A stretch of 42,311 nucleotides of DNA from Candidatus Nanopelagicaceae bacterium. GTDB lineage: Bacteria; Actinomycetota; Actinomycetes; Nanopelagicales; Nanopelagicaceae. The position numbers and the translations under genes were made by a program. Of this stretch, positions 1,999 through 3,530 are shown one piece after another (position 1 is the stretch's first letter; each line of letters opens with the position of its first letter). The notes beneath the pieces are model-generated. The model was given only the letters and a program-made list of their open reading frames with translations, did no database searches and was not told the origin of the DNA. The stretch lies in assembly GCA_947454425.1 (NCBI GenBank), contig CANGJV010000003.1:1-42311 (forward strand), given 5' to 3'.

Positions 1999-2550
1999 AT
2001 GGCAGTAAATGATGGAGATCGAGAGAAGTTCTTTCCTTTAATTGAAAAGAAATACGGCGAGAAAATGTCGTATTGGTTCAAGATTATGAAGAGTCTTGAA
2101 GGCGAGAAGTACCCAGTTCAAATTGCCCACCTTCGCGAAAATTATGGTTTCTCGCAAGCCCATGCCAATGCTTTGGTGATGTATTCGCGAGGTTCCGAGA
2201 GTTCTAAGCGCTTCGATACTCCTGCAGAATATTTTAAGACCGTATCGCCGACACAAGCCAAGACTATGAAGGCAATCTTCAAGGCTCTTACAACCAAATT
2301 CCCAGAGCTAGAACTTGTGATTGCCTGGAATCAACCTATGTTGAAGAAGGATAAAAGTTACATTTTCGGAATATCGGCTGCTACCAATCACATCTTGATT
2401 GCGCCATGGAACCTAGAAGTTTTGAAGAAATACACCCCTAAGTTCAAGGATTACAAAGTTAATAAAAAGACTATTGCGCTGCCCAATGATTGGGATGTTG
2501 ACACAAAACTTTTACAGGCGATGATCAAAGATTCGCTCGCTTCGCTTTAA
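1999..2550 (+). CDS. DUF4287-DUF1801 two-domain protein
   Basis: A 183-residue cytoplasmic protein built of two small domains. Residues about 8-60 (FFPLIEKKYGEKMSYWFKI to SQAHANALVMYSRG) match the DUF4287 pattern, also seen in the 70-residue protein at 33280-33492. Residues about 75-180 (AKTMKAIFKALTTKFPELELVIAWNQP, then LIAPWNLEVL) match the DUF1801/YdhG-like fold, also seen alone at 3177-3530. DUF1801 proteins have been loosely linked to iron handling, but no reaction is established. The start is the ATG 7 nt after a TAGATT box, with no ribosome binding site, which fits a leaderless message. The gene stands alone between the yceI terminator and a small secreted-protein gene. Function unknown. 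Confidence 0.85.
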   Translation: MAVNDGDREKFFPLIEKKYGEKMSYWFKIMKSLEGEKYPVQIAHLRENYGFSQAHANALVMYSRGSESSKRFDTPAEYFKTVSPTQAKTMKAIFKALTTKFPELELVIAWNQPMLKKDKSYIFGISAATNHILIAPWNLEVLKKYTPKFKDYKVNKKTIALPNDWDVDTKLLQAMIKDSLASL

Positions 2551-2610
2551 GTCAATTTAATGTGTAGCAAAGGTTTACAAAACGTGAGGATTAATTAAGG
2601 ATAAATAAGT

Positions 2611-2654
2611 AATTTCTCCCCTTTAATGCAAATTGCATTAATTAAGGAGAAATT
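2611..2654 (+). promoter_or_regulatory. Hairpin sequestering the ribosome binding site of the 2655 gene
   Basis: AATTTCTCC (2611-2619) is the exact complement of GGAGAAATT (2646-2654), which contains the Shine-Dalgarno and ends at the base before the ATG. Inside this lies a second perfect 9-1-9 dyad, TTAATGCAA-A-TTGCATTAA (2623-2641). Together they fold into one 44-nt hairpin that would hide the ribosome binding site. The inner dyad could also be a DNA operator. Confidence 0.65.
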
Positions 2655-2972
2655 ATGGACATCAAAAGTAAATACTTAGCTACAGTGGTTCTGATTGGCG
2701 CCGTTAGCGCCGTCAGTATTGGCCCATCTGCTGCTGCTCAAACGCCTGGTACAACATCCCTATTTAATCCGGTAACTCAAGGTCACTCAAAGCTAAACAT
2801 TTTTGCCGCAGAATCTGGCGGTTCTGATTCTTCTGGCTCCGGGTCAGTGACTGATATTCTGGCTCAAATAGCCGCGGCTGCTCGCGCAGCGGGGGGATGG
2901 GCCATTTTGGGAAAATCATGCCAAGTCATTTACTACACAGCAAGAAGCTGTCCGCAATGTTTTCTGGTGTAG
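2655..2972 (+). CDS. Small secreted protein of unknown family
   Basis: A 105-residue protein with a clear signal peptide (MDIKSKYLATVVLIGAVSAV, then SAAAQTPG, cleavage near residue 30). A Gly/Ser-rich linker (SGGSDSSGSGS) follows, then an Ala-rich probable helix (DILAQIAAAARAAGG) and a short tail with three cysteines ending CPQC-FLV. I recognise no family. The ATG follows a strong AAGGAG that lies inside a long hairpin. The stop is 8 nt before the start of a one-TM protein gene, so the two probably form a unit. Coding potential is supported by the signal peptide, the ribosome binding site and the tight coupling. A frameshift at the odd C-terminal end cannot be excluded without homologues. Confidence 0.6.
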   Translation: MDIKSKYLATVVLIGAVSAVSIGPSAAAQTPGTTSLFNPVTQGHSKLNIFAAESGGSDSSGSGSVTDILAQIAAAARAAGGWAILGKSCQVIYYTARSCPQCFLV

Positions 2973-2980
2973 GAGATGAA

Positions 2981-3163
2981 ATGAAAAACTTAACGAAAGT
3001 TGAACATTGTCACGAAGAAGTAAAGGTGTGGCGTGGGGAGGCTTTTTGGGTTCGAGTAGATAAATTAATGGCGATTTTTGACCATCCCGCGTACTGGTAT
3101 TTCAGTATTGGGCTGATTTTATTTGGAACAATACTTGGAGTTGTGGCAAATAATTTGAAATAG
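2981..3163 (+). CDS. Small single-pass membrane protein
   Basis: A 60-residue protein with a soluble, charged first half (MKNLTKVEHCHEEVKVW) and one membrane segment at about residues 40-57 (WYFSIGLILFGTILGVVA), ending in a short NNLK tail. The ORF track begins 84 nt earlier, but the ATG at 2981 is better. It is preceded by AGGAG at the right distance, and that AGGAG overlaps the stop of the upstream secreted-protein gene, a typical translational-coupling arrangement. The orientation suggests a cytoplasmic N-terminus with its HCH motif inside. No family recognised. It may anchor, escort or inhibit the partner protein, but that is speculation. Confidence 0.6.
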   Translation: MKNLTKVEHCHEEVKVWRGEAFWVRVDKLMAIFDHPAYWYFSIGLILFGTILGVVANNLK

Positions 3164-3176
3164 AATCAAAGACGGT

Positions 3177-3530
3177 TTAACTTTCAGAGATCTGTTTGAG
3201 TCGCTCTTTAATAATTTTCTTGAGAAGCGCCTTCGGAAATGGTTTTTCTAGATCAAAATGGATTGAGCCTTTAGTCTGTTCGTATCCAACCAACTCTTCT
3301 TTAAGTCTGGAAGCTAGTGAGCCACTGTAAGGGAAGATGCTGTTGTGCTTTTTAAATCCATCAAAGCCAATGACCCCTTTGCCATCTATGACAAAGGTGG
3401 GAATTCCATATTTAATGACTTCTTTAGCCTCAGGTAGCGCCTCAGCGATAATTTCTCGAACCCTTTGCAATGCATCCCGCTGGGGTTTATCGAATTTTTT
3501 CAAGTGGGCAGAAACTTCAGCCTTGCTCAT
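3177..3530 (-). CDS. DUF1801 domain protein (YdhG-like)
   Basis: A 117-residue protein consisting of one DUF1801 domain. The hallmarks are EVIKYGIPTFVIDGKGVIGFDGFKKHNSIFPYSG and the closing pattern IHFDLEKPFPKALLKKIIKERLK. Relatives such as B. subtilis YdhG were proposed as iron chaperones, but no function is settled. The ORF track uses a TTG at 3539; the ATG at 3530 is better placed, 9 nt after a GAGG. The start lies 14 nt inside the end of the upstream SRPBCC gene, so the two are translationally coupled. The same domain is the C-terminal half of the protein at 1999-2550. Confidence 0.85.
   Translation of the reverse strand: MSKAEVSAHLKKFDKPQRDALQRVREIIAEALPEAKEVIKYGIPTFVIDGKGVIGFDGFKKHNSIFPYSGSLASRLKEELVGYEQTKGSIHFDLEKPFPKALLKKIIKERLKQISES

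Follow-up and report, generated by a model that had tools for sequence, protein, structure and literature searches.

A predicted hairpin covers the start of a small gene

Why would a gene for a small, exported-looking protein carry its ribosome binding site inside an RNA stem, and does this stem control translation? The gene lies in the window, by which we mean the whole 42,311-nucleotide stretch analyzed here, from a Candidatus Nanopelagicaceae bacterium with a genome assembly of 1.27 Mb. Its translation (gene 1, 2655-2972, plus strand) gives 105 aa with a signal-peptide-like N-terminus and the C-terminus SCPQCFLV. It is followed, here and in the orthologous unit described below, by gene 2 (2981-3163, plus strand), whose 60-aa translation has one hydrophobic, membrane-helix-like segment. 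Read by eye, gene 2 has its own AGGAG, which overlaps the stop codon of gene 1.

The original prediction placed a nested hairpin directly before gene 1, and each of its elements is present. The segment AATTTCTCC (2611-2619) is the exact reverse complement of GGAGAAATT (2646-2654), which carries the Shine-Dalgarno sequence and whose last base, 2654, adjoins the ATG at 2655. Between them lies a perfect 9-1-9 dyad, TTAATGCAA-A-TTGCATTAA, at 2623-2641. The motif ATTAATTAAGGA does occur twice, at 2590 and 2637; its upstream copy is not conserved in the orthologous leader. RNA folding lengthens the outer helix by the pairs U2610-A2655 and G2609.U2656, and the pairing then runs from 2609 to 2656 and includes the AUG. 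Complementarity and fold together define a 5′ arm, the anti-Shine-Dalgarno arm (GTAATTTCTCC, 2609-2619, plus strand), and a 3′ arm (2646-2656, plus strand) that holds the Shine-Dalgarno GGAG and reaches into the AUG. As RNA, the inner dyad (TTAATGCAAATTGCATTAA, 2623-2641, plus strand) forms 8 pairs around a 3-nt loop. The Shine-Dalgarno sequence is thus within the stem of the predicted fold, as expected of a cis hairpin that sequesters a ribosome binding site. Comparison of positions 2400-3200 with Rfam families gave no meaningful match to an RNA thermometer or riboswitch.

Pairing is kept in the orthologous leader

One further unit, G013:C32, came to light when we searched 135 genus genomes by protein and 296 family genomes by profile; its genome belongs to the same genus as the window. 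The protein searches returned no additional orthologue, and the profile search no credible one; the weak matches that we examined looked like chance. Viral contigs and phage records added none, and genome contigs gave the G013 unit only. When we searched the 296 family genomes for the hairpin by pattern, one other site among the loci read had a downstream GGAG, without a comparable start codon layout, which leaves the window and G013 as the two cases.

The original prediction had proposed alignment with orthologues as a check, and the sole orthologous leader does keep the pairing, with a compensatory change. Folded independently, the G013 leader forms an outer helix over GGAG with a 4-nt bulge on the 3′ side and an inner AAUGCA/UGCAUU helix with a 4-nt loop. 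Because MAFFT alignments misplaced the CTCC arms, we used CTCC/GGAG and the loop as anchors to set the register for comparing leader pairs. Gap-free identity then alternates along the leader: 7/22 (2551-2572), 17/18 (2573-2590), 7/22 (2591-2612), and 7/7 (2613-2619). The last segment is the anti-Shine-Dalgarno arm TTTCTCC, identical at every position, next to 22 upstream bases that are 32% identical.

AATGCA/TGCATT of the inner dyad is identical in both units. The inner-stem pair adjoining it is flipped from U-A to A-U in G013, an outer U-A pair becomes U.G, and the apical C/A mismatch becomes a G-C pair, a gain. One outer A-U pair is lost in G013, which also lacks the outermost inner pair and the basal G.U. 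Pairing is therefore kept through sequence change in this one orthologue, and covariation amounts to one full compensatory pair, from the single orthologue in the collections searched. We take these pair changes as modest yet consistent evidence of selection on pairing. The sequestration reading is supported by the two leaders, and it is on these two sequences that it rests.

The ribosome binding site is predicted to be closed by default

We calculated the exposure of GGAG in transcripts with different 5′ ends and at different temperatures. In both units, full leaders carrying the 5′ arm gave an exposure of 0.00 over the whole range of 4-55°C. For the window at 20°C it was also 0.00 with every transcript 5′ end at or upstream of 2615, and it was about zero in read-through transcripts. 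It rises in the window only when the transcript starts after about 2617, that is, when the 5′ arm is removed. In G013, removal of the arm exposes the site only partly, 0.14 to 0.22 at 20°C. The calculated stability is about -20 kcal/mol at 37°C for 49 nt, and the A/U-rich stretch directly upstream is calculated to be 55 to 70% open in the window.

Given the near-zero exposure at all temperatures in the presence of the 5′ arm, a default-off block is the simplest reading. On this model the hairpin at 2609-2656, once transcribed, probably blocks translation of gene 1 by default, to be relieved or bypassed by a later step. The sequence, its predicted fold, and its conservation in a single orthologous unit are what we observe, and from them we infer transcription of the arm, repression, and any step of relief. 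Segment 2609-2656 would be transcribed and fold as a two-storey hairpin, burying the Shine-Dalgarno sequence and AUG of gene 1. Any transcript that includes the 5′ arm would be poorly translated, be it one begun at the unit's own promoter or one reading through out of the co-directional upstream gene. Translation would then require that the arm be removed or bypassed, through cleavage of the RNA, pairing with another RNA, or the action of a protein. Alternatively, a 30S subunit might stand by on the A/U-rich stretch just upstream and so provide relief.

An upstream block and the start of transcription

Where transcription begins bears on this model. The most conserved part of the leader outside the hairpin, GTTTACAAAACGTGAGGA (2573-2590, plus strand), matches the orthologue at 17 of 18 positions and lies at an invariant distance from the hairpin, with no indel. 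This leader comparison suggests that the block probably belongs to the unit's own promoter or serves as a protein site. The block GTTTACAAANCGTGAGGA may hold a -35 element, TTTACA, in which case transcripts would begin near the foot of the hairpin. We found no convincing -10 box, and the start site could therefore lie inside the 5′ arm.

Two other roles for the block were considered and rejected. One was a regulon motif: the block GTTTACAAANCGTGAGGA (2573-2590) has no other exact copy in the 135 genus genomes, which argues against this role, and the motif pattern TTTACAAANCGTGAGGA matches exactly only in the two units, its weaker matches being about as frequent as those of the reversed pattern. 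The other was a leader peptide; as read from the sequence, the GTG frames stop before the hairpin in both units.

A start inside the arm would fit a different function, one in which the hairpin silences transcripts arriving from the upstream gene, while the unit's own mRNA starts within the 5′ arm and meets no block to translation. Shielding from read-through in this manner has been described for transposase genes in some insertion sequences. The co-directional gene upstream ends 104 bases before the unit, we found no terminator-like site in the gap, and the presence or absence of the unit differs among close relatives. By calculation, the window site opens once the 5′ arm is lost, but the G013 site is freed only to about 0.2. 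No promoter-like sequence could be placed for a start inside the arm, and the block at 2573-2590, at usual spacing, points to starts around 2605-2612, at the foot of the arm or ahead of it. We consider this explanation unlikely and prefer a block that also acts on the unit's own transcripts.

Operator, chance, and temperature

The original prediction also allowed that the inner dyad is an operator and the outer pairing a by-product. A perfect 9-1-9 dyad whose AATGCA/TGCATT half-sites are unchanged between the units does look like a site for a dimeric DNA-binding protein. Such a protein would need a fixed half-site spacing, but the spacing is 3 bases in the window and 4 in G013. Further copies in the genome would also be expected; we found none within 2 mismatches, and the sole near match has 3. 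Together, the change in spacing and the lack of other genomic copies make an operator quite improbable. The independent conservation of the outer anti-Shine-Dalgarno arm and the compensatory flip in the inner stem also count against it.

Could the hairpin be a chance or neutral structure in A/T-rich leader DNA, with no function? We surveyed the leaders of 631 crudely called genes from 710 kb of the same genome. Ranked by the longest Watson-Crick helix that covers the ribosome binding zone, the window leader comes first, with 10 pairs against 8 for the runner-up. The distribution of helix lengths drops about threefold with each added pair, and extrapolation of this fall-off gives an expectation of roughly 0.5 helices of 10 pairs per 631 genes. 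By itself, then, the outer helix is not decisive. Whole-leader folding energy gave z = -2.25. We then simulated 60,000 leaders of leader-like composition in which the ribosome binding site was kept constant. An outer helix of at least 9 pairs formed in 109 of these, and none combined it with a nested inner helix of at least 8 pairs (0/60,000). A fold of the orthologue's type appeared in 99 of the 60,000 random leaders. The claim that two such pairings are unlikely by chance is thus borne out for the nested combination; a single 10-pair helix somewhere in the genome is by itself unremarkable. A chance origin can draw on that unremarkable helix and on there being a single orthologue, but it has to account for the nesting, the independent fold of the orthologue, and conservation that follows the segments of the structure, and we regard it as very unlikely.

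The A/U-rich helix does take in both the AUG and the ribosome binding site, but a thermosensor that melts at higher temperature and turns the gene on is extremely improbable, since the calculated stability of the helix and its flat exposure in both units give no opening over the organism's temperature range (by calculation). Of the element originally proposed, the core, a hidden ribosome binding site, is supported by pairing in the orthologue, whereas its temperature-sensing version is not supported and its operator version is disfavoured.

Relation to known systems

Control by burying a ribosome binding site is already known from other genes, and the mechanism itself would not be new. In tisB, ribosome standby relieves a buried ribosome binding site (PMC7708055). 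The leader of gene 1 resembles leaders of the tisB type in that a stable stem holds the site, the RNA upstream is A/U-rich and partly open, and the product is a small membrane or exported one. Unlike tisB, it comes without evidence for an antisense RNA or a toxin; we found no minus-strand promoter-like site in 2400-3300 that might give the antisense RNA of a type I toxin-antitoxin system. Its hairpin is short and local, and its open stretch lies directly upstream, rather than about 100 nt away as in tisB.

The transposase gene (tnp) of ISPpu9 has a structured 5′ leader that is said to restrain translation (PMC8450116). It shares with our unit the structured leader and the occurrence of the gene in some relatives but not in others; our unit differs in having no transposase, identified terminal repeats, or known small RNAs. 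FourU-type RNA thermometers likewise place a cis hairpin over the Shine-Dalgarno sequence, but the hairpin in the window is calculated to be far too stable for physiological melting, and it has no Rfam match.

A limited literature search found no description of comparable leaders in this actinobacterial group. If real, the hairpin would be a case of translation controlled by RNA structure in a streamlined freshwater actinobacterium, and the small genes behind it form an orphan pair that changes rapidly.

A fast-changing gene pair in a variable slot

Gene 1 has no family match in Pfam, NCBIfam, or PHROG. The sole match of gene 2 to known families is a 17-residue one to a PHROG of unknown function. 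The two resemble a peptide/immunity pair, without a family match to support this, and occur in 2 of the 296 family genomes.

The G013 unit occupies the same chromosomal slot as that of the window, with a DUF4287/DUF1801 gene on one side and another DUF1801 gene on the other. The unit is missing from this slot in G126, G140, and G083, three genomes with a flanking gene at least as close. In G126 the slot is empty, the flanking genes being 6 bases apart. The slot, 2550-3177 in the window, is variable, with other sequence in G140, G083, and G021.

Between the window and G013, the proteins of the flanking genes share about 80% identity. By comparison, the C-terminal half of gene 1 is 43% identical and gene 2 is 35% identical, which indicates that the unit changes fast. 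A speculative extension, which we consider unlikely, takes the hairpin as the closed form of a switch dedicated to a fast-evolving, sporadic pair of exported peptide and small membrane protein in streamlined freshwater actinobacteria, possibly a bacteriocin-like peptide and its immunity protein, with a trans-acting factor to release it.

In the G013 assembly, a frameshift near a GGGG run interrupts gene 1, and the two out-of-frame parts of the gene (L003:1990-2211 and L003:1871-2029, minus strand) were compared separately. The C-terminal part is conserved despite the frameshift, which may be a sequencing error or mark a broken gene.
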